Shown piece after piece: positions 33,271 through 55,083 of a stretch of DNA of 64,000 nucleotides. A program made the position numbers and the translations under genes. Source of the DNA: an uncultured Eubacteriales bacterium (GTDB taxonomy: Bacteria > Bacillota > Clostridia > Christensenellales > Aristaeellaceae); NCBI GenBank assembly GCA_902781095.1, contig CACZHW010000012.1, positions 1 through 64,000 on the forward strand, in the 5' to 3' direction. Position 1 is the first letter of the stretch; each line of letters opens with the position of its first letter. Below the pieces are notes generated by a model. The model saw only the letters and a list, made by a program, of their open reading frames with translations. It was not told the DNA's origin and did not search any database.

Positions 33271-33273
33271 CCC

Positions 33274-33315
33274 AACCACCCTAATCTTGATACGAGGTTA
33301 GGGTGGTTACTTTTT
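33274..33315 (+). terminator. Terminator of smpB-ssrA
   Basis: AACCACCCTAA/TTAGGGTGGTT (33274-33284, 33298-33308) followed by ACTTTTT. Confidence 0.92.
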
Positions 33316-33320
33316 CCCTG

Positions 33321-33345
33321 GAAAGCCCGAAAACACGGGCTTTTC
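33321..33345 (+). terminator. Second hairpin after ssrA
   Basis: GAAAGCCCG/CGGGCTTTTC with a six-base AAAACA loop. On the minus strand the stem is followed by CAGGGAAAAAG, so it can act mainly on the plus strand as a backup terminator. Confidence 0.5.
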
Positions 33346-33354
33346 AAGACTCTT

Positions 33355-33600
33355 CCCGTAGGACTATCGGTATGGGTTTCGGCCTTTCGCAGGCCGATTT
33401 GTTTATTTTGGGGGCTTATAGGGCTACGGGAACACCTTTCCCCGTAGGCTTATGACCATTCCCGTAGCCCTATAAGGCTCTCCCGTAGGCTTATACCCTG
33501 TTCCCGTAGTCTTATAATGCTTTCCCGTAGGCTTATGCCTCATTCCCGTAGTCCTATAAGGTTCTCCCGTAGGCTTATGCCCCTATTCCCGTAGTTCAAT
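33355..33600. repeat. Helically phased iteron array, about 21-bp period (CCCGTAG repeats)
   Basis: Eight direct copies of CCCGTAG plus about 6 bp start at 33441, 33461, 33482, 33503, 33524, 33545, 33566 and 33588 (steps 20-22, mostly 21). They alternate between CCCGTAGGCTTAT and CCCGTAGYCYTATA-like versions, so the higher-order unit is about 42 bp. A ninth copy is at 33355 and an inverted copy (GGGGCTTATAGGGCTACGGGAA) at 33411-33432. The gene-free interval 33346-33650 holds only this array. A period of two helical turns places all copies on one DNA face. Confidence 0.93.
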
Positions 33601-37533: not shown

Positions 37534-37935
37534 TCAGTTCGGTCGTCCCTCGATGCCGTCCAATGGTATTTGAAGCTGGGCGGGCTGTGCCGAACGCAGG
37601 TCAAATACGATAGCGTTGTGCGAGGGAATATAATTTCCGTATATCACGCGAGGCTTTTCGTCCGTCCACCCGGTCAACCTCCTGATCCGCCTGAGCAGGG
37701 AATGGCCGCTCATTTCAAACTGCTGCATAGGAACAGGCGGGATCACGACCGCTTCTCTGTCGTCTACGGTACAGGCCTGAAGGAGGAGCATCTTCCTGTC
37801 TTCGTTGATCAGCATCTGCACCTGGCGCGGATGTTCAAGGGCTTCCAGGATTGCCTTGCTGACGAGAATACTGTCTTCCTCAAGGCAGAGCGTAAGCATA
37901 AGGGGTTCTGATCCCGCATATGAAATATCCGTCAT
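37534..37935 (-). CDS. Island protein with a short version of the recombinase C-terminal domain
   Basis: A 133-residue protein with 12-nt and 7-nt gaps to its neighbours. It follows the pattern seen in the next two genes and in the recombinase C-terminus: a strand with VQMLINEDRKMLLLQ, a helix LLRRIRRLTGW, then a YIPSHNAIVFDLRSAQPAQL end. Cysteine/Arg positions in the middle differ, so it is the most divergent copy. No known function. The shared domain suggests it partners the recombinase or its DNA complex. Confidence 0.65.
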   Translation of the reverse strand: MTDISYAGSEPLMLTLCLEEDSILVSKAILEALEHPRQVQMLINEDRKMLLLQACTVDDREAVVIPPVPMQQFEMSGHSLLRRIRRLTGWTDEKPRVIYGNYIPSHNAIVFDLRSAQPAQLQIPLDGIEGRPN

Positions 37936-37942
37936 CCGTTCA

Positions 37943-38365
37943 TCATCCTTTCCTTCCGCGGCATTCCGCCGGAGTGATCAGGGTATAAGACTTCAACTGC
38001 GCTTCGGACAGAATCATTTCCGCATCTGTGAGATCAAAGAGCCATCCCTCGGCATCCGGCAGATAATCTGTCGTTTTCATCATCCTGTTCTGCCGCTGAT
38101 CCCAGCGCATCATACCGAAGATTTTGTGCAGGAAAGCCCCGCTCCCTTTAATGACCGTCCTGCCGGGAACGGATCCGGAGGGAACGGCAAGCGCCGCTCC
38201 CAGATCCTTTTTCCCGCACGGCTTTACGATCATCATCTTCCTCTCCGGATGAACCGCCATCTGCACATAACCTGCCGGTATGCCGTCGAGTACGACGCTC
38301 CTGTCGTCTACTGAAAAAGTCATGGACAGGGGTGCGCTCTGCCGAACCTCCGCGAAGGTCCTCAT
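37943..38365 (-). CDS. Island protein with recombinase-associated domain
   Basis: A 140-residue protein whose ATG overlaps the stop of the 286-residue gene by 4 nt (38362-38365). The domain is visible as YVQMAVHPERKMMIVKPCGK, then FLHKIFGMMRWDQR and YLPDAEGWLFDLTDAEMIL. These line up with YVQVLVNPTAEKLVIRPCEE, LYEMMGW and YVFDLTSTEIYL of the upstream gene. Function unknown; the conserved RPC/KPC and GW segments mark the family. Confidence 0.7.
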   Translation of the reverse strand: MRTFAEVRQSAPLSMTFSVDDRSVVLDGIPAGYVQMAVHPERKMMIVKPCGKKDLGAALAVPSGSVPGRTVIKGSGAFLHKIFGMMRWDQRQNRMMKTTDYLPDAEGWLFDLTDAEMILSEAQLKSYTLITPAECRGRKG

Positions 38366-39222
38366 ACCTTTGTCACCTCCCCGGTTTCCTGATCTATCAT
38401 TTCCATTGGCATCTGCTGACCCTCCGGTTTCTGCCCGACGTCGGCGAAGTCGTATCCGTCCATCAGGTTAATCTGCATGGATGTCCGGTGTTCCTGAACG
38501 GGAATGCCGAAGGAATCCCGCCAGTCCGCTGGGTATACCGCTGTGCTTCTCTTGGCTTTTGCCGTCGGATTGTCAGGATCTTTGACGGAAGGAAGATAAA
38601 TCTCCGTGCTGGTAAGATCGAATACGTACAACTGCTCGCCCTGGTAACTGATCCTGGTTCCCTGAAGCTTATAGCGGTAGAGCGCTTCCCAGCCCATCAT
38701 CTCATACAGCTTTGCGGTGAACAGGCCGCATGTGATCTGCCGGCTCTTCCGCTTGTCGTCTTTGGCGATGCACCACCGGATCGCGTCCCTTGCGCCTTCC
38801 TCGCAGGGGCGGATGACCAGTTTTTCGGCGGTAGGATTAACAAGCACCTGCACGTAAACCACCTGCTCCAGCTTCGATATGCAGGCGTTGTTGAAAATGA
38901 TGCTGTTTCCACGGATCGTGAGCGTTGGATCAAACTTGTGCGAGAAGAATTCTCTGCGTACCACCTGGTAGCCCTCAAAGGAAAAACCGGCTTCGATGGC
39001 GATCCGCTGCGCTTCCTCGCGTTCTTCCTTACTCAGCGGTTTAAACCCGCCCTGGGTGAGTACCTGGGCATCCTTATCCAGCACACCGGCGGGAGAGTAC
39101 TGCTGAGGATAAGTACGCTGCGGATAGGCCGGATAGCCTGTCTGCGGCATTCCCGCAACCGGCCGGGGATACTGCGGTGAAGCCTGGGCGTTGTAGGGGT
39201 ACTCGGTTTTCCGTTCATCCAT
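38362..39222 (-). CDS. Island protein with Pro/Tyr/Gln-rich N-terminus and recombinase-associated domain
   Basis: A 286-residue protein (SD AAAGGAG). Residues 5-50 are a low-complexity Pro/Tyr/Gln region (QTGYPAYPQRTYPQQYSP). Residues about 80-210 hold the shared domain: EGYQVVRREFFSHKFDPTLT, YVQVLVNPTAEKLVIRPCEE, DAIRW, LYEMMGW, LYVFDLTSTEIYLP. The recombinase C-terminus has the same order (EGFQVVSGSLFNHAYEATVS, YVEVLFNPVERMLAVRPSDE, NAIRW, LYEALGW, LFFDLDN). A sticky N-terminus plus this domain suggests a structural role in a nucleoprotein complex; that is inference. Confidence 0.72.
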   Translation of the reverse strand: MDERKTEYPYNAQASPQYPRPVAGMPQTGYPAYPQRTYPQQYSPAGVLDKDAQVLTQGGFKPLSKEEREEAQRIAIEAGFSFEGYQVVRREFFSHKFDPTLTIRGNSIIFNNACISKLEQVVYVQVLVNPTAEKLVIRPCEEGARDAIRWCIAKDDKRKSRQITCGLFTAKLYEMMGWEALYRYKLQGTRISYQGEQLYVFDLTSTEIYLPSVKDPDNPTAKAKRSTAVYPADWRDSFGIPVQEHRTSMQINLMDGYDFADVGQKPEGQQMPMEMIDQETGEVTKV

Positions 39223-39254
39223 TTTCTGTCACTCCTTTTGCTTGTTTTCCTGCT

Positions 39255-39617
39255 TTAATCGCCGTCCCATACGCCGTCGGGTCTCATTTTCGCCATTGCG
39301 ATCAGTTGAAACAGCGGCCGTTTCGCGTTGCCTTCGGTCGCTTTCCAGTAGTCCTGGTCTACATCGTCTCCCAAAGCGGCAGCGGCCTTCTCCAGAACAG
39401 GGATGCTTTCCGCGCCTGTCATGCCGTAGATGGTCCGGATGCCTTTTTCCCCGAACACATCGTCTCTGTAATAGAAATCGCTGTAGTTGTAGGTCACATT
39501 CAGCCAAAGCTCCTTTGTGCCTCCCAACTTGTATGTGCCTCCTGTCATAAAGTGCGGCTCGTCTACCTCCAGGGTTTCCTTCGTAACCGGGTCGCGCAGG
39601 CTGATGTCATAGCTCAT
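39255..39617 (-). CDS. Hypothetical island protein
   Basis: A 120-residue acidic protein (GGAGG, 8-nt spacer). It begins YDISLRDPVTKETLEVDEPH and has a Tyr/Asn-rich strand (LWLNVTYNYSDFYYRDD). A helical second half reads ESIPVLEKAAAALGDDVDQD. The early hairpin resembles small proteins common in Bacillota mobile elements, but I cannot name the family. It sits between the 248-residue unknown and the recombinase-domain genes in one operon. Confidence 0.7.
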   Translation of the reverse strand: MSYDISLRDPVTKETLEVDEPHFMTGGTYKLGGTKELWLNVTYNYSDFYYRDDVFGEKGIRTIYGMTGAESIPVLEKAAAALGDDVDQDYWKATEGNAKRPLFQLIAMAKMRPDGVWDGD

Positions 39618-39662
39618 TTCTTTTACCTCCCGGATCTGTTTTGCTGATTGCGCGGACGAAGC

Positions 39663-40409
39663 CTATTGCTCTTTGCCGTCTTTTTTCTTCCAAAGCTTTC
39701 CTACCAGAAGAGCGTCCAGCCTTCCGCATATTTCAGGCGCGCACTCAGCAAGTACCGCGTCCTGCCCGAGGGAAAGCTTTCCGTAGAAATCGCGCATGAA
39801 TTCTTCGCTGAAGGCTCCGTACACCATTCTGCTGGACTCATCGTGCAGATGGCATTCGCACCTGTATATGTAGCCGAGCCAGTAGGCGTATTCGTAATCG
39901 TCCGCCAGCTTTTTAACGTCCGTTTCCGAATCCAGGATTACAGGACTGGCGCGGGCCTGAGGGTCACTTTCTTCTGTCTCTTCCTCGTTCAGCGCTTTGA
40001 CGATCGCCATGTTCGGGTTTTCTCCTGTTCCGACGCCGCTGACAATTTCGTTCAGCCACATGACCGTATCCACGATAACGGAAGGGGACTTCAGCAGTAC
40101 GGGCATCCTCAGGTAGTTGGATATATCGTCTTCCTCCATGCCGCCGGCGCAGGAGAAGCTGTAGTCGATGACCCCCGCAAGCTGGCTGTTCATGAACACC
40201 GGTGCAAACTCGCTCATGGCAAGGCCCCTGTCTACCGCCGCCATGAAAATGCTTCCCTGCATGTCGCAGTAGGCAAGATCGCGTTCGGTGAATTCACGCT
40301 CAATCTTCTCCACGTCGGGGTTTATCGGGGATTCCCGCGCCATCTTCATCAACCGCTTCACGTTTCGGGAAAGCGGTCTGCTCCGCGCGGGGTTCTTGGC
40401 ACTGATCAT
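39663..40409 (-). CDS. Hypothetical island protein coupled to the recombinase
   Basis: A 248-residue protein whose start overlaps the recombinase stop by 4 nt (40406-40409). It is acidic and mostly helical. A basic N-terminus (KNPARSRPLSRNVKRLMKMA) is followed by a body with a DYEYAYWLGYIYRCECHLHD segment near residue 185. No catalytic motif is recognised. The tight coupling suggests dosage-linked action with the recombinase. Confidence 0.68.
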   Translation of the reverse strand: MISAKNPARSRPLSRNVKRLMKMARESPINPDVEKIEREFTERDLAYCDMQGSIFMAAVDRGLAMSEFAPVFMNSQLAGVIDYSFSCAGGMEEDDISNYLRMPVLLKSPSVIVDTVMWLNEIVSGVGTGENPNMAIVKALNEEETEESDPQARASPVILDSETDVKKLADDYEYAYWLGYIYRCECHLHDESSRMVYGAFSEEFMRDFYGKLSLGQDAVLAECAPEICGRLDALLVGKLWKKKDGKEQ

Positions 40410-42652
40410 TCCGGGCCTCCTTCCTCGTTTTCATCGTCGTCTTCCGCCGCGTCCATCGCGTCCAGCATGATTTCCTGGAGCGCTTCGATCTCGCTGTAGT
40501 CAACACGGTGATCGCCGCCCAGAACACGCGCTTCCGTCATGACCTCCCATTCTCCGTCGTCGTCAATCGCCGTCAGCCGGAATTCGCTGTTGTGCTCGAA
40601 GGCCGGGGTGCCGTAGTTCCGCTTTTCATATTCCGCGATTTCCTTCAGCTTCTGTTCCATCGCTTCCGTGTCCTCGATGGGCTGCGGTTCGTCGTCCGCT
40701 CCGAAGAATATTCCTTTGGTTTCTTCGGATTCCATCCGCCGTCCGGTTTCCTGCCCCGGCGCGTTCTCTTCTCCCGCTGTGCGCTTGCAAAGTTCCCTGC
40801 CGATGAAATTGTCCAGGTCGAAGAACAGGATGGTTTCACCGTCTCTTCGGCGCACGATTGCGGGTGAGCGGTATGCGTACCCTTCATCCCACCCAAGCGC
40901 TTCATACAGTATGGAACAGAACGCTTTTGCGCTGACGTTTGCGCCTTTGCCTTTCTTATCCGTCCAGCGGATTGCGTTCCGGTTGCTTTCGTCGCTCGGG
41001 CGGACGGCAAGCATCCTTTCGACCGGGTTGAACAGCACCTCGACATACTGCTGCCGGGAGATGGTGATTTTACCGTCTGATTCTGATGACGTATCCAGGC
41101 GGGAAACGCATGTGGTGCTGAAAGCCATCTGCCTGGGGCTGAAGGAGACGGTCGCTTCATACGCGTGATTGAACAGGCTTCCGCTGACCACCTGAAATCC
41201 TTCGCGGATCTTCGGAGCGTTTTCCTTTGATTCGCTCTCTTCCTGGCTGCCCTCGATCTGCGCTTTGATTTTCTGCTCCGCGCTGGAAAGCGTCCTGGCG
41301 ATGCGCTGGACTCCGTTGTCGTCTGTCATTCCGACAAGACGTCTGCCGCCCTCCGGCAGATGCTCGTTCTCCAGGTCTGTTTCCATTTCACCCTCGGCAA
41401 GCCCCATGGCGATGCTGCTGACGCGGTAGTATTCCGCGGCGTCGTATCCTGCCCAGGCCTTGTTCACGGAAATGTATCCGGTCAGCGCGCCGTGGTCGAT
41501 GACCATCATGGGGAGGTAACCGCCTGTATGCCTGTACCTGTGGCTGTTCAGTATCCGCTGCGCCGCGTTCCACTGCGCTCTGGTGATGATCGCCGGATGA
41601 TGACCCGGCTGGTAATACTTGTTCTTCTTGCCGTTGTTCCGCTTGGACTTATGGTCGTGGAAATCAGGCGTCCATGTTTTCCTGGCCAGTACGTCTCCGC
41701 AGTAGCGTTCATTCCGCAGGACGCTGTACACCGCGGCTTCCGTCCAATGCGTGCTGTGCCGTCCGCACACCTTCCACAGCCCGGTTTCCCTGCGCAGGTC
41801 GTTCAGCGTTTTCGCGATCTCCGCCGTGGAACTCCCGTTCAGCAGCATGTAATACATGAGCCGGACGGTATTCGCTTCATCCTCGTTGATGACAAGCACC
41901 TTTTTATGACTCCCGTGCCCGTCCGGTATCTCGACCCTGTCGTATCCCAGCAGCGCGGGGGTAATGAAACGGCCGCGACTGAAGCGCCATTCGATGGACA
42001 ACTGCGACGCCTCGCTCTTCATATGGCTTTCTTCCTCGGCCACCATGGCCAGGACGAAGAGGATGATGTTGCTGGTGGCGTCCAGGGTGTTTAGGTGCTC
42101 CTGCTCGAAGAATACGGGAATGGGCGGATCGTGCTTGTCCTTCAGTTCACGCACCCACCCGATGCAGTCCAGCAGGTTTCTCGCGAAGCGGCTCACCGAC
42201 TTGGTGATGATCATGTCGATCTTGCCGTCCATGGCGTCTTTCATCATGAGTTTGAAGGCCGGCCGGTGATCCGTGTTCGTTCCGGAGAATCCGTCGTCCA
42301 CGTAGGTGCCGGCGTAGCGCCATTTGGGATTGGCTTTGATCATGTCCCGGTAATTCCGCTTCTGGAGTTCGATGGACCACAGCTGATCCACGTCTTCCGT
42401 GGAGACACGGCAGTAGGCGGCGACCCTCAGGATACGGTCTTCCTGGGCGGCCTGCGCGGCGGTGGGGATCTTGTGGATGCCCTCGCCGGTATAGGTGCTG
42501 ACCTCGGCGCGCAGGGCTTCCTTCGCCCTCGCGCGTTCGGTCATGAACCCATTTCCCGGCGGACGCTCAGCGGGTTTTCCCCGCGCCTCCCGCGCCTTTT
42601 GCCTGGCCCTTTCCTCGGCCATCGGACGTACGTCTTTCAAGGGTTGCTTCAC
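40406..42652 (-). CDS. Large serine recombinase with extra C-terminal domain
   Basis: A 748-residue protein. The resolvase catalytic domain spans about residues 74-215: YCRVSTED with Ser84 as nucleophile, YVDDGFSGTN, SRFARN with the catalytic arginines, and EEESHMKSEAS. The recombinase domain follows (LLGYDRV, ALYYMLLNGSS-like YYMLLNGSS, YSVLRNERYCGD). A classic zinc-ribbon CxxC pair is not evident; instead residues about 486-620 carry a domain shared with three downstream genes. The start is GTG 42652, though GGAG sits only 1-2 nt upstream; TTG 42640 is an alternative. It probably moves the island. Confidence 0.9.
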   Translation of the reverse strand: MKQPLKDVRPMAEERARQKAREARGKPAERPPGNGFMTERARAKEALRAEVSTYTGEGIHKIPTAAQAAQEDRILRVAAYCRVSTEDVDQLWSIELQKRNYRDMIKANPKWRYAGTYVDDGFSGTNTDHRPAFKLMMKDAMDGKIDMIITKSVSRFARNLLDCIGWVRELKDKHDPPIPVFFEQEHLNTLDATSNIILFVLAMVAEEESHMKSEASQLSIEWRFSRGRFITPALLGYDRVEIPDGHGSHKKVLVINEDEANTVRLMYYMLLNGSSTAEIAKTLNDLRRETGLWKVCGRHSTHWTEAAVYSVLRNERYCGDVLARKTWTPDFHDHKSKRNNGKKNKYYQPGHHPAIITRAQWNAAQRILNSHRYRHTGGYLPMMVIDHGALTGYISVNKAWAGYDAAEYYRVSSIAMGLAEGEMETDLENEHLPEGGRRLVGMTDDNGVQRIARTLSSAEQKIKAQIEGSQEESESKENAPKIREGFQVVSGSLFNHAYEATVSFSPRQMAFSTTCVSRLDTSSESDGKITISRQQYVEVLFNPVERMLAVRPSDESNRNAIRWTDKKGKGANVSAKAFCSILYEALGWDEGYAYRSPAIVRRRDGETILFFDLDNFIGRELCKRTAGEENAPGQETGRRMESEETKGIFFGADDEPQPIEDTEAMEQKLKEIAEYEKRNYGTPAFEHNSEFRLTAIDDDGEWEVMTEARVLGGDHRVDYSEIEALQEIMLDAMDAAEDDDENEEGGPE

Positions 42653-43164: not shown

Positions 43165-44016
43165 TTACTCTGCCATAAGAGTCTTGCTGAACGCATCGTA
43201 GTTTGCGGTTTCCGTGGGCCGGCAGTATACCGCGAATTCTACATGTCTGAACCAGCCTGCGTATTCTTCCAAGGCTGTCCTGAACGCCTCTGCAACAGCG
43301 TCCGGATCGTTCATGAACGCTCCGCAGCCGAATGCGCCGAGAATCAGCATGTCCGCTTTGTTTGCTGCGGCGACATGCAGGATGTGCTTCGCGCGCTTGA
43401 CATGCAGATCATACTGCTCCGAAAAACTGAGAGACACTGCCGCTCCGCTGGCGGGATTATGCACGTTCCCGGGTTCCGGGCGGAGGTTAGGAGCGGCACA
43501 ACTGATCACGTCCACTGTGACCCAGTCTTCCTGCTTCATGCGCTGGGGGAAGGTTTCGTCTGTTTTGCAGATTACGATCCCCGACGAATAAATGCAGGCG
43601 TCGGTATTCAGGTTATTGTGCGCGGCACGGTTTGGATCGTAGTATTTCTGCCACAGCCACCGCCGGTCAAGCGTCGGGTAAAGAGTAGAGCACCGGCACA
43701 GGCTTTCTTCCTGTGCGCTGCTGCCTGTTTTCACTCCGCCGCCGGGACGTGTCGCCGAAGCGAAATTCAGCACGGCGATCCTGTCTTCCGGGTGAGCGGA
43801 ATGCCACTCCATTGCCGCTTCAAACGTCTTATGCTTCGTTACGCTTACACTGCCTTCGCGATCCGGCGCTCCCTCCAGAGCGGGATATTCATCGACGGCA
43901 TACAGTTTCGTACCGTCTCGGCTGGCTGCCACTGAAGATGCCAGCGCGGGATCTTCCGTATAGAACTTCTGTGTATCCTCAAAAACCTCAATCAGCCGTT
44001 GGCGTCGGTCGTACAT
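43165..44016 (-). CDS. TIGR02452 family protein (bacterial PARG/macrodomain type)
   Basis: A 283-residue protein. The signature is around residues 85-110: NFASATRPGGGVKTGSSAQEESLCR (the GGGV loop and QEE catalytic pair of bacterial poly(ADP-ribose) glycohydrolases), followed by STLYPTL and later ADMLILGAFGCGAFMNDPDAVA, which binds ADP-ribose in macrodomains. It is expected to remove ADP-ribose from proteins or nucleic acids. Last gene of a coupled operon, overlapping the metallophosphoesterase gene by 25 nt. Confidence 0.9.
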   Translation of the reverse strand: MYDRRQRLIEVFEDTQKFYTEDPALASSVAASRDGTKLYAVDEYPALEGAPDREGSVSVTKHKTFEAAMEWHSAHPEDRIAVLNFASATRPGGGVKTGSSAQEESLCRCSTLYPTLDRRWLWQKYYDPNRAAHNNLNTDACIYSSGIVICKTDETFPQRMKQEDWVTVDVISCAAPNLRPEPGNVHNPASGAAVSLSFSEQYDLHVKRAKHILHVAAANKADMLILGAFGCGAFMNDPDAVAEAFRTALEEYAGWFRHVEFAVYCRPTETANYDAFSKTLMAE

Positions 44017-44558
44017 GCGTGTTCCTCCTTAAAACGCCGGTTGTTTTCAATCAGTTCATCCAGAGTGACAGGCGCGAAGCCGTTGATATCCACGCCCGCG
44101 TTGAGCATCTGATCCCGGGCGGCGATGAGCGGCCAGTAATCCGCACCGGTGTTGTTATGGATGTGGCCGTAAATCATATACCCGCCTCTGCTCATACCCG
44201 GCCAGGACATCATGGGATAATGGCACAGTGTGGCCGAGCGTCCGCTGTCTGTGACAAAGAGCATGGGCGATACGCTTTCAAACCACGCGCCTAGATCCGC
44301 CTTCTTCATCCAGTACCTGTCATGGTTGCCGATGACAAGGTGCTTTTTGCCCTTCAGCGCCGACAGGTATACTTCCGCCGGTTTCTTTGCGCGGAAGAGA
44401 AAGTCGCCCACGATATAAACTGTGTCGTTTCGATGCACCTTGGCATTCCAGTTTTTGATCAGCGCCGTGTCCATTTCATCCGCGTCAGCAAAAGGGCGGC
44501 CGCAGTGCCGGATGACGTTGGCATGACCAAGATGCAGGTCAGAGGTGTACCAGATCAA
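43992..44558 (-). CDS. Metallophosphoesterase (calcineurin-like)
   Basis: A 188-residue protein with TTG start at 44558 (SD AGGTGA). Metal-ligand motifs are in the canonical order: TSDLHLGH, VYIVGDFLF, VIGNHDRY, CHYPMMSW and YGHIHNN. It resembles phage and plasmid single-domain phosphoesterases that act on nucleotides or cyclic phosphates. It is the second phosphoesterase of this operon and is unlike the one at 45754-46449, so they probably act on different bonds. Confidence 0.92.
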   Translation of the reverse strand: MIWYTSDLHLGHANVIRHCGRPFADADEMDTALIKNWNAKVHRNDTVYIVGDFLFRAKKPAEVYLSALKGKKHLVIGNHDRYWMKKADLGAWFESVSPMLFVTDSGRSATLCHYPMMSWPGMSRGGYMIYGHIHNNTGADYWPLIAARDQMLNAGVDINGFAPVTLDELIENNRRFKEEHACTTDANG

Positions 44559-44570
44559 TCACATCACCTC

Positions 44571-45185
44571 TCAGCTTTCGAGAATCAGCACACGCACATC
44601 CCGCAGGCCGATGGCAGAGTCTTCGTCCTCCCACGCAAGGTTGCGGTTGAAGGCCTGTACACGGGCGGAAACGGCCTGATAAAACTCCCGAAGAATACTG
44701 CGGCTGCCGTAAGGCGGGGTGTATTCATAATACTGATAGGCCTTCTTCGCTTCCGTATCCAGTTCCTGATACTCTTCCACGGAAAGCATATGATCTTCGT
44801 TCAGGGAATCCTCCTCCGGGTGGCTCAGTTGTCTTCCGATCTCCTGCCGGGGGAAGAAGCCGCAATACTCGGGTATGCTGAAATCTACCTTCTCAAACCA
44901 TTTGCCGTCAATCACATACCAACTGCGCCATCTGGGGTTTTCCGTGCCGGCAAGCACGCCGTCATCACCGGTGCATTCCTTCTTCACCGCGTCGGACAGA
45001 TCTCCCGGCGGGGCCATCAGGTACTGCCAGTCGCAGTCCCACTCCAGCGCCTGTTTTACAAGGCTCTGGCCTGTGACGCAGGGGACGATCCGGAGCCGGC
45101 CCTTTACATCCTGCTGAAAGAAATCAATACACTGCCACTGACCGTTTACCTTTGCTTCAGTATAGCCGTCAAGCCATACGCTCAT
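44571..45185 (-). CDS. Hypothetical protein of the phosphoesterase operon
   Basis: A 204-residue acidic protein rich in Trp, Tyr and Glu. It starts MSVWLDGYTEAKVNGQWQCI, a form seen in small phage-encoded proteins, and has KYYEYTPPYG-like YQYYEYTPPYG near residue 150. No catalytic signature. It overlaps the GrpB gene by 4 nt (45182-45185) and precedes a phosphoesterase by 12 nt, so it is co-expressed with nucleotide-acting enzymes. Confidence 0.72.
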   Translation of the reverse strand: MSVWLDGYTEAKVNGQWQCIDFFQQDVKGRLRIVPCVTGQSLVKQALEWDCDWQYLMAPPGDLSDAVKKECTGDDGVLAGTENPRWRSWYVIDGKWFEKVDFSIPEYCGFFPRQEIGRQLSHPEEDSLNEDHMLSVEEYQELDTEAKKAYQYYEYTPPYGSRSILREFYQAVSARVQAFNRNLAWEDEDSAIGLRDVRVLILES

Positions 45186-45742
45186 TTCTGTTCACTTCCT
45201 TTGCGTTCCGAAAAGGCCTGCCTGTATCCCGCCAGCACACCTTCGATAAAGAATCCCTTGACCGTCCGGTACATGTCCCGGTCGTCCGGGAAGATACCTT
45301 CCAGCATATGCTTTGTATACCTGTACCTGGCGCGCAGCAGTTCACTGTCCAGAAGCAGTCTCTGAAACAGCAGCTGATCCTGCGCGACAGGATTGTCCTC
45401 ATAGCACAGATGCGCATAGAAGGTCTTGCCGGGCTCTCTGCCGCTGGACAGGAAATACCGTCCCGGTTTGCCGCACTCTCCAAGATTGCGGTAACCGATG
45501 CGTTCCAGTTTGGGGATGCATGATTCCAGCGGCACGCTTTTGTCCGGGCAGACCAGAATGTCGATGATGGGCTTGGCAGGCATCCCTTCAATGGACGTGG
45601 AGCCGACATGCCTGACAGCAACGCTTCCGCCGTCATCAATGAGCGCGCCGATGATGCACTGCTTTTCCAGGTGAAATTCGTGCTGCCATTCGGAATCCCA
45701 GGGGGCGAGCCACACTTCGTTGTGAATATCCTTTTTCTCCAT
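45182..45742 (-). CDS. GrpB family nucleotidyltransferase-fold protein
   Basis: A 186-residue protein. ATG 45742 is preferred (GAGGAG upstream). GrpB/UPF0157 markers: EVWLAPWDSEWQHEF, the nucleotidyltransferase signature VRHVGSTSIEGMPAKPIID, and HLCYEDNPVAQDQLLFQRLL. The GS...DxD pattern suggests nucleotidyl transfer, but activity of the family is poorly known. It lies between the second phosphoesterase and an unknown gene in a run of overlapping genes. Confidence 0.88.
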   Translation of the reverse strand: MEKKDIHNEVWLAPWDSEWQHEFHLEKQCIIGALIDDGGSVAVRHVGSTSIEGMPAKPIIDILVCPDKSVPLESCIPKLERIGYRNLGECGKPGRYFLSSGREPGKTFYAHLCYEDNPVAQDQLLFQRLLLDSELLRARYRYTKHMLEGIFPDDRDMYRTVKGFFIEGVLAGYRQAFSERKGSEQK

Positions 45743-45753
45743 GCCGTTACTCC

Positions 45754-46449
45754 TCACACCTTGAATTCCCGGATAGACTCAAACAGCAGCGTCAGCCTGT
45801 CAATATCCTTTTCCGTATGATAGTGCCCGGCGTACCAGTGCTTATAGGTCAGTCTGTCTTCAATAGAATCCAGCCAGGTTTCCGTGCTTTTATCCACCTT
45901 GCTCTGATCGATCTGGGGAAGGAACACTTCAACCGGCTCGTATTTCAGGGGAACTGTATGGGTCAGGACGGCATCGACTTTCCAGTTCTCGTAATCAAGG
46001 ACTTTTTCGATTCCCTTTTTCATTTCGGGCGTCGGCTGCTCGTCCGCCCACCAATTCCAGCCGTTTGCCAGACGGTAGTATTTGTCCACGCTGTACGCGC
46101 CACCGATAACGATCGTCTTCTGCCCGTCCATATCAAACACTTCGCCGTCAACGGCGAACAGCAGATTGGGATATTCGTCCTCGACGAATACCATGCCGCC
46201 GTTCCATTTCTTCAGACGGTATGTAGGGATCGTGCCCGGGCGCATTTCGTGGTTTCCGTGAATGGAGAATATGGTGATGGGCATTTCAGCCATACGCTTT
46301 TTTGCGCGTTGATCCCGCTTGCCGCCGTAGTAATTGAACCCGGCGTCACCGAGGATGATCATGACGTCGTCTTTTGACGGGTGAAACCTGTCGCAGAACC
46401 GCTCGATGCGGGAAAAGTCTCCATGCGTGTCTCCGGTTATATAAATCAT
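45754..46449 (-). CDS. Metallophosphoesterase
   Basis: A 231-residue protein. Metal-binding motifs: ITGDTHGDF, MIILGDAGFNYYGG, IFSIHGNHEMRPG, LTHTVP and YAGHYHTEKD. The GDTHGD/GNHE set and the WWADEQPT segment match stand-alone phage-type phosphoesterases. The start at 46449 (GAAGGAG) overlaps the upstream gene by 4 nt. It is distinct from the 188-residue enzyme downstream. Confidence 0.92.
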   Translation of the reverse strand: MIYITGDTHGDFSRIERFCDRFHPSKDDVMIILGDAGFNYYGGKRDQRAKKRMAEMPITIFSIHGNHEMRPGTIPTYRLKKWNGGMVFVEDEYPNLLFAVDGEVFDMDGQKTIVIGGAYSVDKYYRLANGWNWWADEQPTPEMKKGIEKVLDYENWKVDAVLTHTVPLKYEPVEVFLPQIDQSKVDKSTETWLDSIEDRLTYKHWYAGHYHTEKDIDRLTLLFESIREFKV

Positions 46450-46742
46450 TTCTTCTCTCCTTCAAGATGGGCTTTTGCCCAGCTTTCGGCGCGGTCAGGA
46501 TCGCTTACGCACCAGTAGAGGAAAAGGATCAGCGTTTCTTCCAGTGTCCAGCCAATGGCTGACATCACCGCTTCCGCTTTTACTTTCAGCACCTCGTCCA
46601 ATTCGACGGAGATGGTTTCCGTCGCGCACTCAATGCTGCGCCTGACGTTTTCATGGACGGACATGAGTTCCGCATCCTCAGGGCATTTGAAGAAGTCCGG
46701 TTCTTTCCGCCCTGCCACATAGTTAAATATCTTCTGCTCCAT
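46446..46742 (-). CDS. Small RHH/RelB-like protein
   Basis: A 98-residue acidic protein. The second half (VELDEVLKVKAEAVMSAIGW followed by TLEETLILFLYWCV) resembles the RelB/DinJ antitoxin pattern of strand plus two helices. No toxin of the RelE type is adjacent. The upstream gene overlaps by 20 nt (46723-46742). It may be a regulator of the operon or an orphan antitoxin. Confidence 0.62.
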   Translation of the reverse strand: MEQKIFNYVAGRKEPDFFKCPEDAELMSVHENVRRSIECATETISVELDEVLKVKAEAVMSAIGWTLEETLILFLYWCVSDPDRAESWAKAHLEGEKK

Positions 46743-47016
46743 TCTGTTTTATCCTCCTGGCGGCCCTGCGCTTTTCCCGGTATTCTCTGCTGATCCGTTC
46801 CACTTCGGCGATCTCCGCCTCGTAATTGCCTGACAGGCAGGCGTAAGTCTCAATTGACGTCAGCGCGCAGACACGCTTGCCCCTCCGGGTAAAGAACGCG
46901 ATATGACCGGGCGTTTCGACGAAAGCCCAAACCGCTGACGGCTTTCTGCGGAATGCGGTAACGGTGAAGTCTTTTTCCTCGATCAGGAAGTCGAGCTTCC
47001 CTGGCATGTGATCCAT
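46723..47016 (-). CDS. Hypothetical small protein of the phosphoesterase operon
   Basis: A 97-residue protein (GGAGG, 7-nt spacer). It has beta strands KLDFLIEEKDFTVTAF and VWAFVETPGHIAFFTRRGKR, then a basic helix (EVERISREYREKRRAARRIK). It overlaps both neighbours (33 nt with HAD, 20 nt with the RHH gene). I do not recognise the fold. Confidence 0.6.
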   Translation of the reverse strand: MDHMPGKLDFLIEEKDFTVTAFRRKPSAVWAFVETPGHIAFFTRRGKRVCALTSIETYACLSGNYEAEIAEVERISREYREKRRAARRIKQNGAEDI

Positions 47017-47474
47017 GGGTGTGCCTCCAGCCCGTTAAGTATTTCTATACACCGGTCAGCTTCCTTCTCAGTCAGACCGGTGTCAAATTCTGTTTGAACG
47101 AGATGGTCCATATGACCAGTCATATCGTTGTCATCGTCCAGAATCACATACTGCCATTCGCCCGGATTACGGTTGAACCATGCTGTGATATCATTTCCTC
47201 GTTCACCGCCGACATAGGGGGTCTTATCATACGGTTCTATCCCATATTTCGTGAGCCATTCCAGCAGACGCTGGTACGATGTGGGAATTTGTCGCCAGGC
47301 AGAGGAAACCACAATATACGCACCGGTATAAGCAACGATACGCTTTAACTGTTCCAGGGACGGCTCGTACAGAAGATCGTCCCTGTAGGTGCGTACACCC
47401 CGCTCATACATTCTGGTAGCCCATGAGCCATTGTTAAGGACACCGTCCACATCAAGAAAAATGACTTTGTTCAT
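46983..47474 (-). CDS. HAD-family phosphatase of the RNA-repair (HAD_SAK) type
   Basis: A 163-residue protein; ATG 47474. HAD motifs: FLDVDGVLNN (nucleophile Asp), IVVSSAWRQ (motif II Ser), and YVILDDDNDM (motif IV). The TPYVGGERGNDITAWF and TEFDTGLTEKEAD stretches match the HAD domain found in Swiss-army-knife RNA repair proteins and related phage phosphatases. It opens the coupled operon and would act on phosphorylated nucleic acid ends or nucleotides. Confidence 0.88.
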   Translation of the reverse strand: MNKVIFLDVDGVLNNGSWATRMYERGVRTYRDDLLYEPSLEQLKRIVAYTGAYIVVSSAWRQIPTSYQRLLEWLTKYGIEPYDKTPYVGGERGNDITAWFNRNPGEWQYVILDDDNDMTGHMDHLVQTEFDTGLTEKEADRCIEILNGLEAHPWITCQGSSTS

Positions 47475-47508
47475 TCTTGCCCCCATGGCCATAAGTCCGG
47501 CCAAATAT

Positions 47509-47553
47509 ATATTCTCATAGTACGCAATGCCTTTCAACGTCCGTCCGGTCGCA
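47509..47553 (-). promoter_or_regulatory. Promoter/operator of the HAD-phosphoesterase operon (site copy 2)
   Basis: CAACGTCCGTCCGGTCGCA (47535-47553) is 18/19 identical to the block at 42722-42740. It overlaps a TTGAAA -35 (47532-47537, minus) with GAATAT at 47509-47514 (17 bp). The transcript would start about 30 bp upstream of the HAD gene. Confidence 0.7.
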
Positions 47554-47612
47554 AATATGAAATTTTTCCAAAGAGATCTAAGCCGGAGTTTGTTGTTATA
47601 AAAGAGTGAATG

Positions 47613-47640
47613 AAAAAAGGCACCCCAACATAGGGCGCCC
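47613..47640 (-). terminator. Terminator of the HTH gene at 47645
   Basis: On the minus strand GGCGCCC/GGGTGCC (47633-47639, 47619-47625; one G-U pair) followed by TTTTTTC. Confidence 0.8.
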
Positions 47641-47644
47641 GGTG

Positions 47645-48115
47645 TCAAGCAGACAATTTGAGCGGTTTCCCACCGTATGATGTAAGGCTTTCCTGGACAT
47701 CGTCCACTGAGCACTTAAACATCGTATGGGTAATACGAGCAAGTTCCCGGTTTCTTCGTGTTCCTGTCAGACTAATCCCTGCTGCCTTTAGCAGTTCTGT
47801 AGAAAGCCACGGAGGCAGATGCATGGCAATACACATAGCAACAATCTTTTCCGGGTTATATGAAGTTTCCTTTCCCAACCGCTTGTACCGGTCTACGGTG
47901 GAAGGTGAAATGTGAGCATTCTCAGCAAGTTGTTCAATGGTTATATGCGACAGTTTCATCACATAAGACAGCGCCTTTGGGAAAGCGCCCGGCATGTTGT
48001 CAAGGAGCATTTCTGCCTTTTCAAAACGTTGGGCATCGGTTAATTTCCGCAAAGGATCGATAAAGTCATAGTAATCCGCAGTAGAAATCCGAACAGTTTC
48101 AACATATTGATCCAT
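47645..48115 (-). CDS. HTH domain protein, island regulator
   Basis: A 156-residue protein (GGGAGG, 6-nt spacer). The HTH is around residues 55-85: MKLSHITIEQLAENAHISPSTVDRYKRLG. It is followed by CIAMHLPPWLSTELLKAAGI, which is seen in XRE-type regulators that pair with metallopeptidases, although no ImmA gene is adjacent. The ATG overlaps the upstream gene by 17 nt. Confidence 0.8.
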   Translation of the reverse strand: MDQYVETVRISTADYYDFIDPLRKLTDAQRFEKAEMLLDNMPGAFPKALSYVMKLSHITIEQLAENAHISPSTVDRYKRLGKETSYNPEKIVAMCIAMHLPPWLSTELLKAAGISLTGTRRNRELARITHTMFKCSVDDVQESLTSYGGKPLKLSA

Positions 48116-48572: not shown

Positions 48573-50021
48573 TTAGGATAAAAAGTATGTATCAATTTCT
48601 CCAACCGTATGCAATATTTTGCTATCGCTTACACCTGCTTCTTTCGCGAGTAGAATAGATGCCCAGAAAGATTTATTTACATCTGAATTGAATGCGAGTT
48701 CGCAGATGCCGTTATAATAAGTGACATACGCCAGGAGATCGTTAATTGTTTTTTGCAAGTCTGACTTTAAAGAATTAGTATATACTGTCAATTCTGAATT
48801 CATCTCTTCAACTAAAGCTTCTTCCTTCTTTTCAGCATATCTAATACAAATACCATAAAGTGTTTCACCGATAATATTTCCAATAACTGCCCCTAGAATT
48901 GGGATTGGAATGATCATTTGCCCAAAGTAAGAAGACAAGGTACTAATGGCAATATCAAGACACATTATTTCTGAGTTTATCAAGAAGGTGTCTTCGGCAA
49001 TAGCGCCTCTTTCATATGCATTCAACTGAGAAACAACACCAATTGCCGCCGTAGTGTATGCAGATGCAAGATTCGCCGATGTATTAGTAAAATTGGTCAA
49101 TAGATATACGCTAGTGCCACGTATGCCGCCCTTAATTATACCAAATCCGGTTTCTTTTGCGATCTCTATCCAGTCATTCTCATCAAACTCGTATAGGTGC
49201 TTTCCGGAACGGAGCTTTTTGAATACACATATGCAAAAGCAAAGACCGCCTTCAACTGCTGCAGATGTTCCTGCCACTTTGGCCCCTTCTTTTAGCGAAG
49301 GAGCAGTTTTTCGATACGCTTCCTGACGCTGTTCCTGATCCTTTTTATCAAGCAATTGTTTTTCATTATCAATAGCTGCATTAACTTCGTTCTGCTGTAC
49401 TTGATTATAGTCAGCAACAGACGGTGCTAAATCAGAGGAGACCGACAACCCTGTATCCTTTTCAAATTCATTTATTGCTTGCAGTTGAGACCATTCCGAA
49501 TTACTCAAAGATGAGGGTTTGTTTTTTGAACGATAAATAATTTCTTGCATTTCTTCCCATTGATCCTTGGGGATATCATAGCTTCCACCGTTTGACACAA
49601 AATCCGGATAGGTTTCAGAATGCTTCTTTACTGCTCGAAGTGTGTTTTTTATTCCGTTGCAGAACTTTGACTGTATTTGTTCGCCGTTCCTTAGATAGTC
49701 CTCTGGTGCGGTTCTTCCAACGCCGTCAAATGAATACTCTTTTTCTAAACCCAGAATTGCATTTCTCGCATTAGAGATGTTAACCTGGTAATGCTCGGCT
49801 ATTTCACCGTGCTTAGTCAATTCGCTCCCGAGAATATGCTCTGGATCAGCAATAAAGCTTTTAAGTTCATTTAGTTCTGCTAAGGCATTCTCCAAATTCA
49901 AATCTTGTTTAAACAGTCTTGAACACAGGTCATATAACCGAAGCTGATTCTTATAGTCGATCCACGCTGCTGTAGCCTTGTCGACAGTACTTCTTGAGGC
50001 TCTGCTTACAGATTCGGCCAT
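48573..50021 (-). CDS. Putative membrane-active protein of a two-gene accessory module
   Basis: A 482-residue AT-rich gene. The first 250 residues are a helical/coiled-coil region; a second part (about 250-420) has Gly/Ala-rich amphipathic and hydrophobic stretches (FGIIKGGIRGTSVYLLTNFT, then TAAIGVVSQL, then MIIPIPILGAVIGNIIGETL), a glycine-zipper-like pattern seen in pore-type proteins. The ATG overlaps the stop of the upstream gene by one base (TAATG). I do not recognise the family. The position beside defence-like genes suggests an effector. Confidence 0.7.
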   Translation of the reverse strand: MAESVSRASRSTVDKATAAWIDYKNQLRLYDLCSRLFKQDLNLENALAELNELKSFIADPEHILGSELTKHGEIAEHYQVNISNARNAILGLEKEYSFDGVGRTAPEDYLRNGEQIQSKFCNGIKNTLRAVKKHSETYPDFVSNGGSYDIPKDQWEEMQEIIYRSKNKPSSLSNSEWSQLQAINEFEKDTGLSVSSDLAPSVADYNQVQQNEVNAAIDNEKQLLDKKDQEQRQEAYRKTAPSLKEGAKVAGTSAAVEGGLCFCICVFKKLRSGKHLYEFDENDWIEIAKETGFGIIKGGIRGTSVYLLTNFTNTSANLASAYTTAAIGVVSQLNAYERGAIAEDTFLINSEIMCLDIAISTLSSYFGQMIIPIPILGAVIGNIIGETLYGICIRYAEKKEEALVEEMNSELTVYTNSLKSDLQKTINDLLAYVTYYNGICELAFNSDVNKSFWASILLAKEAGVSDSKILHTVGEIDTYFLS

Positions 50022-50719
50022 TATTGCTCCTCCTCAGAATAAGTTATTGCTTTGCTAATAGCCTCTGATAACGTAAGTGTCTTGTTTACTATACTCCCAA
50101 GGAATTTTCTAATTTGGATGTCTAAAGACCTATAATCGCAGTTTCTATACAAACCGAGACGATCAACTTCAGAGTTTAAACCATTATATAATGTTTCAAT
50201 CATGCTGGTTTTTGCATCGATCTGTGCTATATATTTTGATAATTCAGTCTCTTTCTTCCTTATCTCTTGAGTTACTTTAAATGCTTCATTGGCGATTTTT
50301 GTATTCGTAGCCTTAATCTTCAAAACTGATAATGCAGTATGAAAGGCAACGATTGCCCAACCAAACCAATGGTCAAAACGTTCTCCAGAACCTATATATA
50401 CCCAACCTCGACCTGCTCCTTTTAGAAGATCACCAGTGGCATCTAAGTATCCTTCAAATGCCTGATCTTTATATTCTTCAGTTTTTTTATATGTCGAAAT
50501 ATTGCTTGTAACGGTAAAGATGTCAGTTCGCATTTCCTTTGGTGAATTGCAAATTGAATTAATTAGATCACAAATATGATTAATTAGATCTATTGACGCT
50601 TCCTGGCAATTGCGAAGCTTATCTGAAGAAGATTTCAACTGAGGCAATAAATTGTTGAATGACGATAATGCTTTTTCATAGTTCGCAAGCGCTTCTTTCT
50701 TAAGGTCATTGTTAAGCAT
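50021..50719 (-). CDS. Partner protein of the two-gene module
   Basis: A 232-residue AT-rich gene (SD TTGGAGGG). Helical throughout, with an N-terminal coiled-coil (YEKALSSFNNLLPQLKSSSD), a central hydrophobic stretch (HWFGWAIVAFHTALSVLKI) and a second helical part (VTQEIRKKETELSKYIAQ). The central segment could be one membrane pass. It is co-translated with the 482-residue protein. No family recognised; it may sense or gate the partner. Confidence 0.68.
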   Translation of the reverse strand: MLNNDLKKEALANYEKALSSFNNLLPQLKSSSDKLRNCQEASIDLINHICDLINSICNSPKEMRTDIFTVTSNISTYKKTEEYKDQAFEGYLDATGDLLKGAGRGWVYIGSGERFDHWFGWAIVAFHTALSVLKIKATNTKIANEAFKVTQEIRKKETELSKYIAQIDAKTSMIETLYNGLNSEVDRLGLYRNCDYRSLDIQIRKFLGSIVNKTLTLSEAISKAITYSEEEQ

Positions 50720-52240: not shown

Positions 52241-53014
52241 TTAGCCGTTGATCATTGTCAGCAACTTCTCAAATAGCAAGTTGATGTTTGAAAATCTTCG
52301 GAGAGAATTATAACCTTGACGGATATATGCCCATGATTCCTCATATGTTCTCCCATGAGCAACATCCTGATCGTTTATAAAGAACTTCGCAGCTAACATG
52401 GCATCACCATCAAATTGGGAATAGAATTGAGCCGCTTTATCGCACTTTTCGCGTCCTGTAGGTATATTTGTTTCCCGGTGGAGAAAGGTGTCTAAGTTGC
52501 ATGACATGTAATAAACAGAATAAGGAACGGTTTTCGTTTTTACTTTGATCTCTTTTCGAGAACAAAGGTAATCGATATTTGCGCGTTTTCTTAAATTCCG
52601 ATTCCTAATACCCTGTACATTGTTCGCTTCTATTCTGTCTGCATAATACATCACAGGATGCTCTTCACTTAGGGGCTCCGATGGAAATACAACATTTTCA
52701 TCTGGTATATAAGCGCCGTCAAGATCAACTATCTGTATGATCTCGGTCACGTCCTTTGGGTAAATGTTTTCCTTATCCAAAAGAGGCCCGACAACAAGTT
52801 TATGCATCAGCATCTCAATTTTCTCCGGAGTGACTCCGTTTCGAGATGTTATATCTCCACCTACAACCCCATCTTCTTCCATCTGGCAAAAGAAGACCTC
52901 AGCATTTTCGTCTATTTTTTCATAGAGTTCACTCATAATAGTCCACAAAGCGTTTCTCTCTGATAAACCTTCGACTAAAAACAGAACGATTTGCTTCTTA
53001 GGCCTCTTTCCCAT
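52241..53014 (-). CDS. TOPRIM-like protein of an ATPase/TOPRIM defence pair
   Basis: A 257-residue protein; ATG 53014 lies inside the end of the ATPase gene (17-nt overlap). The N-terminus has the TOPRIM glutamate motif ([14 protein letters not shown]) and a later DxD ([14 protein letters not shown]), the ligands of the nuclease metal. The rest ([28 protein letters not shown]) is not a match I can name, although RloB/AbiLii and DUF4435 (AriB) proteins have a similar layout. With an ABC-type ATPase as partner, a phage-defence nuclease role is likely. Confidence 0.8.
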
Positions 53015-54461
53015 TTCCAACCCCCGCTTTCCGAAGAGCATCTACAATCTTGTACCGTTTGGTACGATTATATATTTCTTCGTCTTGTTCATGCATCAGG
53101 ATTTCACGGAAATACACATTTCGGAGATTATTTGTTTTCCCGATGCTCTTCAAGTGGATATACCGGTTATCAGGGTTGGTTGTAGTGAAATAAAGGTACT
53201 TTTTATCTATTACTTCCAGGGGACGAAGATTATGAGATGTAAAGATAAATTGCCCTTTTCCAGATTCTTCTATAGTCTGTAATATCTCTCCAAGAAGGTA
53301 TTCAAAAATACCAGCGTCAAATTCATCAATGGCAACGGTGCAGGATTGATCATTATAAACAGCAATGATCAAAGCAAGAATTGAAATTATTTTTCTGATG
53401 CCATCAGATTCGGAACGAAGAGGAAGTTCCACTCCATCGCGAGATGCGACCATCTCGACGATTCGACCCTCTTTGCCATCTTTCATTAATGTAGGAGAAA
53501 GAGATTTTAACCCTATAGAGAGTTCGGGAACAAGTTGAGTTAGAACAGAATTGATGTTTTCGAATTGCTCATTGATTTCATTAAAGAGTTCTGTAGGAAT
53601 AGTTGTTGGTCCTTTTGCATTTAACGGAAGCGTTCCATTTCTTGTATACAAAGGCATGCCAACATTTAAACGGATAAGACCGGAGGATTTTGTATTTACA
53701 ACAAAGAAATAAAACACACTAAAATAATGCAATTCAAGAATCAATTGATAGTACTCAGAATATAATCCTGTACTACTTATCAGTTTAACTGTATCCTTCA
53801 TAAAGACAAATGAACGCGAACGTTCATAGGCTAGTTGCTTGTTCACCTCAAGTTGTACAGGCAGTTTCTTATCAGTGCCAATGATTTGCTCCATTTTTTG
53901 TTTGGAACTAAAAGGCATGTCAGCACGAGAAGTATCAATAAACGGCTTCATCGTTTTCTTTTCGCCATCAATATCGCCCGCAACCCTTAGAATCTCATTG
54001 AATACATGAATTGCCATTCCGTTGGAAATCGGTTCGTCATCATCATCGTCATCGTCGGTTGACTCGTATTTTACTGTCTCATTCTGCTTTACTTGTTCTG
54101 CTGAAATGCAGAACGAATACTCGACCTTTCTAATCCGACCATCTGGGTATTGAAGATCGAACGTGAATGTCAAGCGGGAATAGTCTGCATTTCTTGCAAT
54201 ACATTCTGCATAAACGCTAGGCAATTTGCCTCCAGACATGAGAATTCGAAGAATGGCAAGTGCTTCAATAATTGCGGTTTTGCCAGAACCATTTTGCCCA
54301 TATATTCCCATAATGTCTGACTTAGTACCATAAGGAACAAATTCTTTTCCGCAATTAAAAACTAGTTCGCCATGGCGAACACTTTTGAAGTTTTCTAGAA
54401 TCATCTTTTGAATACGGACAGTCGGAAGATTATCCGCATGATCTTTAGTCATGAATGGCAT
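52998..54461 (-). CDS. AAA/ABC-type ATPase of a defence pair
   Basis: A 487-residue protein; ATG 54461 with GAGGAGG. It has ILENFKSVRHGELVF, Walker A IYGQNGSGKTAIIEAL (about residue 55), an SESDGIRKI signature-like segment, Walker B VAIDEFDAGI and a FTSHNLRPL H-loop. It belongs with RecF/OLD-like ATPases such as AbiLi/RloA and AriA. An acidic insert (DDDDDDD near residue 140) is unusual. It is coupled to the TOPRIM gene, forming a sensor-effector pair. Confidence 0.88.
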   Translation of the reverse strand: MPFMTKDHADNLPTVRIQKMILENFKSVRHGELVFNCGKEFVPYGTKSDIMGIYGQNGSGKTAIIEALAILRILMSGGKLPSVYAECIARNADYSRLTFTFDLQYPDGRIRKVEYSFCISAEQVKQNETVKYESTDDDDDDDEPISNGMAIHVFNEILRVAGDIDGEKKTMKPFIDTSRADMPFSSKQKMEQIIGTDKKLPVQLEVNKQLAYERSRSFVFMKDTVKLISSTGLYSEYYQLILELHYFSVFYFFVVNTKSSGLIRLNVGMPLYTRNGTLPLNAKGPTTIPTELFNEINEQFENINSVLTQLVPELSIGLKSLSPTLMKDGKEGRIVEMVASRDGVELPLRSESDGIRKIISILALIIAVYNDQSCTVAIDEFDAGIFEYLLGEILQTIEESGKGQFIFTSHNLRPLEVIDKKYLYFTTTNPDNRYIHLKSIGKTNNLRNVYFREILMHEQDEEIYNRTKRYKIVDALRKAGVGNGKEA

Positions 54462-54648
54462 CGTTGATTCCTCCTCACCAGATTTAGCCAACGAATATAT
54501 AGTAACACTCATTTATCAATTTGTAAATATGAACTTTGAGAAATTGAATAAAAAATTCAAAATCTGCAAGTTCGTGTTAATTCGACCTATTTCGCGTTTC
54601 AATTTGTGGAATAAACAGGGGAGAATAAATATGTATGGTCTTTTAAGA

Positions 54649-54824
54649 GGTAACCGGTGCGACCAAACGGTCTTAAATCCATGATGTTACCAGGATCTTT
54701 CTTTTACGTTACCCTCGGCCTCAACCTTGTTACCATTCGTCTTTGACCTGTTACCATGTCTGGAATCATGTTACCGCCCAAAATGAAAATGTTACCAGCC
54801 GCCGAAAAAGTAACAACTGGTAAC
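54649..54824. repeat. Second phased array, about 21-bp period (GTTACC repeats)
   Basis: GTTACC occurs at 54686, 54708, 54729, 54750, 54770 and 54791 (steps 22, 21, 21, 20, 21). Inverted copies flank the set: GGTAACC at 54649-54655 and GGTAAC at 54819-54824. Between repeats the sequence is variable. The array lies in the divergent interval between the ATPase/TOPRIM operon and the acetyltransferase. The gene-free stretch 54462-55083 holds this array and a terminator-like hairpin (54856-54909). Confidence 0.88.
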
Positions 54825-54855
54825 ATCGTATCAAAATTCACGTTCCTTGCCAAAG

Positions 54856-54909
54856 AGTCCTTACTCGAACGCTTGCCTGAAAAGCAAGGCTTCGGGCGAG
54901 GACTTTTTT
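54856..54909 (+). terminator. Terminator-like hairpin in the leader of the acetyltransferase gene
   Basis: AGTCCT/AGGACT (54856-54861, 54899-54904) with an inner CTTGC/GCAAG stem is followed by TTTTTT. It lies about 175 bp upstream of the acetyltransferase start and may act as an attenuator or close an upstream transcript. Confidence 0.65.
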
Positions 54910-55083
54910 CATTGCTTTGTCAAAACGTCGTTTTCCTTAATTGTTTTATTACACCCGTAGTATCCAGGGAAATTGGATGCATTGAGCAACGCGAAAAGTC
55001 TGTCGGTCAGGCTGCTTTCCCGCTGTTGATTTCAGGCAGTATTCCCCATATAATAACGCTGAGAATAACGGAGGGATAACTTT

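Follow-up and report, generated by a model that had tools for sequence, protein, structure and literature searches.

Among described mobile elements, SCC/SCCmec and ECC (CcrA/CcrB/CcrC) resemble the element analyzed here in a pair of large serine recombinases (LSRs), a fixed gene 3' end as the target, tandem or composite organization, variable cargo and att sites with dyad symmetry. Their target is rlmH, whereas any tRNA or tmRNA CCA serves here, and the present elements differ further in the phased arrays at both ends and the terminator built into the left end. The Ccr profile cut-offs are not reached, with LSR1 of the relatives described below scoring 120 bits with the CcrB profile (curated cut-off 900) and the 748-aa LSR of our locus scoring 80 bits. 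Tyrosine-integrase islands of the Islander set likewise occupy tRNA and tmRNA 3' ends, favor tmRNA and form tandem arrays, but here there is no tRNA fragment at the far end, the recombinases are serine enzymes and one end type is found with many tRNA species. Tycheposons are tRNA-targeting cargo elements of marine cyanobacteria that also include recombinase-free members but use a tyrosine recombinase. Serine-recombinase IMEs of the Tn4451/TnpX type share the LSR, the 2-bp crossover and the occurrence in Clostridia; they have low target specificity or disrupt dispensable genes (PMC5704250), and terminal arrays such as those found here were not seen described in that source. A 2014 survey did not know serine recombinases to pick tRNA genes, and the later open papers found in a limited literature search do not report otherwise. 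We rate the present family as a variant form of LSR-mobilized elements that matches neither SCC/ECC nor the tyrosine tDNA islands.

The right end of the element

The right array lies in a 64-kb window, the whole stretch of DNA that was analyzed. It consists of six GTTACC motifs (54686-54796, plus strand; identified by motif search and shuffle comparison) starting at 54686, 54708, 54729, 54750, 54770 and 54791, which corresponds to steps of 22, 21, 21, 20 and 21 bp. Inverted copies accompany it, GGTAAC at 54649 and 54819 and a partial GTAAC at 54810. Starts and steps were re-read from the sequence and agree with the preliminary description of six motifs at 20-22 bp with inverted copies. The spacing was compared with chance by shuffling the window 100 times with dinucleotides kept and searching for any 6-mer chained at 20-22 bp. 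The longest chain was 2 in 94 shuffled windows, 3 in the other 6 and never more, and chance is refuted as the source of a chain of six. The real window contains exactly two such arrays, GTTACC with six copies and CCGTAG with eight (33441-33600), as expected from the initial observation of two arrays with a common spacing of about 21 bp and different sequences. Across the 2.7-Mb genome, six GTTACC pairs occur at the array spacing, five of them inside the right array and one as an isolated pair elsewhere.

The array is not confined to this locus. A search of relatives for three GTTACC in phase returned more such arrays. The outer side of the relatives' GTTACC arrays is identical in form, AAAAAGTAACAnnnGGTAACATnGTATCAAAATTCACGTTyCTTkCCA, and this right-edge pattern is present in at least 17 of the 308 genomes of the GTDB family, distributed over nine genera, with zero matches for the reversed-pattern control. 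Similarity breaks off sharply past the CCA, where conservation halts in 24 distinct right ends. One element with identical end sequence occurs in several genomes of two genera and its flanks differ after the CCA (L049 versus L060/L051). The sharp stop and the changed flanks define a precise mobile boundary. They place the GTTACC array in the subterminal, inner portion of a mobile element's right end, with 54852 as the final base of the element. The array had been delimited as 54649-54824; the array itself stands, but the conserved unit runs past 54824 to the CCA at 54850-54852.

Outward of the six motifs, comparison of the relatives' ends shows that the inverted copies are joined to the half-site (AAAGTAACAACTGGTAACATCGTATCAAA, 54807-54835, plus strand). 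The half-site GTATCAA-N16-CA (54828-54852, plus strand) forms the outer terminus. A promoter-like sequence directed inward (TTGGCA-17-TACGAT with a TG before the -10, 54825-54853, minus strand), assigned by consensus match only, overlaps this half-site. The hairpin just outside the element (54853-54912, plus strand; -27 kcal/mol) is probably the original tmRNA terminator. The flanks of 23 of the 24 right ends fold into hairpins better than shuffles, as expected if the original terminator is displaced to the far side.

The left end, the target and the joined ends

The integration target in the window is the tmRNA gene (32923-33270, plus strand; ARAGORN and Rfam RF00023), whose CCA (33268-33270) abuts the left end. 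Homology with other genomes of the genus mostly ends at the tmRNA 3' end, and a second end type (33268-33600) that carries the CCCGTAG array lies directly behind the CCA. It is composed of the half-site C-CA-N16-TTGATAC (33268-33293, plus strand), whose geometry is shared by 36 distinct left ends, a T-run hairpin that forms a substitute tmRNA terminator (33271-33318, plus strand; -24.2 kcal/mol), and the left subterminal array (33411-33600, plus strand), in which one inverted copy is followed by direct CCCGTAG copies at about 21 bp. An ordinary tRNA terminator was rejected as an account of the left end: the TTGATAC hairpin has a fixed distance to the CCA and recurs with arrays behind many tRNA genes. 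The tmRNA is the only Rfam match in the window, and the tag peptide called by ARAGORN is unusually long (ANTLSRPNQAARRPGVPAAPVTGVNSAGHVPA).

The right edge read on the minus strand contains TTGATACGA...GTTACTTTTT. The pattern TTGATACnAn(10-16)TTACTTTTT has exactly two matches in the 2.7-Mb genome and they are inverted, one at 33287 (plus), behind the tmRNA gene and ahead of the CCCGTAG array, and one at 54805 (minus). The same TTGATAC-type end pattern occurs in 30 of the 308 family genomes (zero for the reversed-pattern control). The inverted pair identifies the two arrays as the two ends of one 21.6-kb element. This pairing, already suspected from their position at opposite ends of an island, recurs in a complete 7.5-kb element (G242:C2), which has a CCCGTAG array on one side and GTTACC on the opposite side. 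Further complete elements measure 9.4 kb (G330:C1) and 6.9 kb (G288:C14). An assignment of each array to its own layer of a composite island is unlikely, both being end modules of the same element type. Further left ends and left-end-like sequences were also seen. The window's own genome has a second left-end-like hairpin, CCA-N16-TTGATACGA, without an array, at a tRNA-Leu gene (L139:2048, G000:C3); behind an LSR1 relative in G035:C8 (L408, about 4.9-5.4 kb) are two facing left-end-like sequences, each with its own phased array; and two viral_contigs entries (L356 and L367), probably misclassified elements, both start with the end of a tRNA followed by this type of left end.

Left ends take the form tRNA-CCA|N16-TTGATAC, and 27 of the 36 distinct ones follow a tRNA or tmRNA CCA: 19 lie behind an ARAGORN-called tRNA (Ala, Arg, Ser, Leu, Lys, Pro) and 8 behind tmRNA or a cut-off tRNA with TTCRA at the right distance. 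Seven more are behind the CCA of another element's right end, in tandem, and two are ambiguous. Tandem stacking was observed in G242, G288, G215, G262 and G071. The insertion point of this family is thus immediately after the CCA of tRNA and tmRNA genes, the hosts are gut and rumen Clostridia, and serine recombinases are the probable integrases. A scan of an 84,980-species collection is consistent with this distribution; among the matches listed, the true end geometry is almost only in gut and rumen Clostridia MAGs, one of them labeled Lachnospiraceae, and others, such as Nostoc, were rejected as chance matches that have no CCA spacing. Right ends and target share the CCA only, and the window holds no direct repeat of the tmRNA end. 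Neither an excision circle nor an exact empty site turned up in the sequences, which come mostly from metagenome-assembled genomes, where borders at repeats often coincide with contig ends. The element-free tmRNA genes of G012 and G008 have a terminator immediately after the CCA that resembles the flank of a G165 right end.

TTGATAC stands inverted at equal distance in both ends, GTATCAA-N16-CA and CA-N16-TTGATAC. Joining the right end to the left end gives GTATCAA-N16-CA-N16-TTGATAC, which is exactly symmetric about the CA. The joined ends have the geometry of an LSR attP, a dyad around a central dinucleotide. LSR attP sites combine a central dinucleotide with an outer zinc-domain motif, which in A118 is TTTAGTATC at positions 16-24 (PMC3783163); GTATC here is about 4 bp further out than in A118. 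Counted from the same CA, the invariant T55 C56 R57 A58 of the tRNA T-loop occupy positions 21-18, where the attP has T C A A. By our own, uncorrected estimate, such a match would arise by chance at a single fixed register with a probability of about 1 in 128. The match suggests a route for one enzyme into all tRNA genes. Classical LSR systems have the zinc-domain motif of attB 5 bp further inward (PMC3783163); the T-loop, by contrast, shares the register of the attP. The B' half, on the terminator side, is not conserved, which is unusual for an LSR attB.

Recombinases, a candidate array-binding protein and competing explanations

Clustering of ORFs around the ends returned one recurring enzyme family, the serine recombinases, and no other recombinase family, with tyrosine-integrase profiles not applied to every element. 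In G087 and G325 one operon running towards the left array (operons L160 and L158) encodes LSR2 (467 aa), LSR1 (531 aa) and an HTH-zinc-finger (HTH-Zn) protein, and each LSR combines a Resolvase, a Recombinase and a zinc-ribbon domain. In G071, G238 and G242:C120 the HTH-Zn gene is located upstream, and it is LSR1 that terminates close to the array. Since the left array is found at the 3' end of the recombinase operon, it is not the operator of that operon. LSR1 (at least 60% identity) co-occurs with the ends in 11 of 19 genomes against 2.2 expected (p = 5e-7).

The HTH-Zn alignment has eight invariant cysteines forming two Cys4 sites, and AlphaFold models a three-helix HTH with pLDDT above 90. 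The best match of the profile in the PDB is 8vd6, to which five repeats align with the HTH part only, a match uninformative on function. The HTH-Zn proteins of G087 and G325 are only 47% identical while LSR1 and LSR2 are 87% and 95% identical, and the left-array motifs of the two elements differ (GCGTTTGGATAT versus GCCGTGTACTTATC; array motifs CGTTTGG in G087 and GTGTACTTATC in G325). In three CCCGTAGG elements the HTH-Zn proteins are 60-68% identical. At two GTTACC right ends (G242-B and G268) the HTH-Zn proteins encoded by the first inward gene have nearly the same recognition helix, PESVKQFFYRR. This covariation of protein and motif across few elements makes the HTH-Zn protein the best candidate for array binding.

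The window element encodes neither LSR1/2 nor the HTH-Zn protein. Its sole recombinase is a 748-aa LSR (40406-42652, minus strand), and a homologue is present in the G330 element, which has the same kind of ends, so the protein could be taken for the cognate integrase. That assignment is unlikely: nine loci with homologues have no such ends in the flanks read, and genome co-occurrence with the ends is weak (4 of 12, p = 0.04). Homologue loci and co-occurrence point to a probable passenger. The 748-aa LSR does not follow the ends, and the 21.6-kb window copy, having no LSR pair, is probably non-autonomous. A DDE transposon with multiple transposase sites at its ends (IS21-, Tn7- or Mu-like), a 3-bp CCA target duplication and TnsD-like targeting would account for subterminal repeats, inverted ends and insertion beside tRNA genes, all familiar there, and six HTH-Zn proteins give weak TnsD Pfam matches. 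It is nevertheless quite improbable, because Pfam scans of the window element contain no transposase and none recurs in the clustered ORFs of relatives, where LSRs do, because the inverted motif common to both ends starts 17 bp in from the termini and their outermost 16 bp are different, and because the symmetry is centered on a dinucleotide. A classical tDNA island could use the arrays as arm-type sites of a tyrosine integrase, whose classical targets are tRNA and tmRNA 3' ends (PMC4383910) and whose arm sites flanking arrays would suit. The absence of a displaced tRNA fragment, with only the CCA common to right ends and target, and the finding that, by ORF clustering, only serine recombinases are shared around the ends make this highly improbable.

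Direct repeats of 21 bp together with an inverted copy are what plasmid iterons and their operators typically show, and several left arrays with different motifs have CGTnnnnnTAT in common, which would fit a replication origin or partition site of a circular form. Set against this, Pfam finds no initiator in the window element and none was recognized in the complete elements of 6.9-9.4 kb, the arrays are at both ends with different motifs, and right arrays go down to one copy or none. An iteron function is decidedly unlikely, and the 'origin' of the preliminary description, with neither an initiator gene nor a link to replication, is not supported. A promoter-like sequence that reads into the array and an adjoining terminator might also indicate that the array acts as RNA, in the form of a small RNA or transcribed leader that repeats GUUACC/GGUAAC and is closed by the terminator. 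This is very unlikely: the terminator is part of the target and not of the mobile unit, it varies in sequence between insertions of the same element, and left arrays lie beyond a terminator hairpin. The terminator was likewise rejected as part of an RNA gene, the flanks changing between copies of one element.

The best explanation, to which we assign a probability of roughly 60%, is that the arrays are end modules of a CCA-targeting element that is integrated by an LSR pair, with HTH-Zn binding predicted. In autonomous members the pair, whose genes lie immediately internal to the left end, would carry out integration, crossing over at the CA of the CCA between the attP GTATCAA-N16-CA-N16-TTGATAC and the tRNA 3' end, which would be recognized by its invariant T-loop. 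After excision, attP in the circle would have the left array on one side and the right array on the other, and each array would present a row of sites on one helix face to the cognate element-encoded HTH-Zn protein. That protein may control integration or excision and may also repress, at the right end, the inward promoter across the half-site. The window copy would need recombinase help in trans. A fuller version, which we hold tentatively at a little below even odds, is that serine recombinases read the T-loop as a half-site, cross within the CCA and so enter any tRNA or tmRNA gene, that the substitute terminator and an end mimicking the tRNA tail let elements stack, and that attP is flanked by arrays for a fast-diverging HTH-Zn protein, perhaps as a mark of element identity. 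If true, the build-up of islands in these gut and rumen Clostridia would be explained by a recombinase able to use many tRNA genes by way of T-loop and CCA. Genome engineering might also gain a near-universal landing site, since to our knowledge T-loops are present in every bacterium and tRNA genes that encode the CCA are common. With these elements one can ask why phased arrays would be required at the site of a serine recombinase, and the end pattern is a clean rule for finding island borders in MAGs.

Position of the right array and cargo

The right array would sit in the leader of the first inward gene, behind the predicted promoter. This gene encodes HTH-Zn in G242-B and G268, where autoregulation would follow, and belongs to an AAA-ATPase operon in the window, where the array would control that cargo. 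An operator, one of the functions first proposed, is possible for the right array, which lies just inside the inward promoter-like sequence. A free-standing operator was rejected as a full account; the array is always within a mobile end. A part in the control of recombination, as the arrays flank attP in the circle, is equally possible as the promoter role.

All annotated cargo of the window runs inward from the right end and includes defense-like genes. The first gene inside the right array encodes the AAA ATPase (52998-54512, minus strand; AAA_21, AbiLi/AriA-like by PADLOC), accompanied by a 266-aa partner (52241-53041, minus strand) that has no Pfam, NCBIfam or PADLOC match. A candidate defense pair, PDC-M09B/PDC-M09A, follows at 48573-50719 (minus strand). 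Genes resembling NAD/RNA repair functions (PARG, two metallophosphatases, GrpB and HAD_SAK_2) occupy the middle of the element (43165-48115). In its C-terminal part the 748-aa LSR is related to the neighboring 286-aa protein (32%; window 37534-42652), and homologues in G330 also link the 140-aa protein, giving a recombinase whose own extra domain also occurs in free-standing copies. The complete left-to-right element of G288:C14 (L155, 99-7022) has no recombinase and carries a phosphate-uptake-like operon that consists of a binding protein, two permeases, a PhoU-like protein, a response regulator and a sensor kinase.
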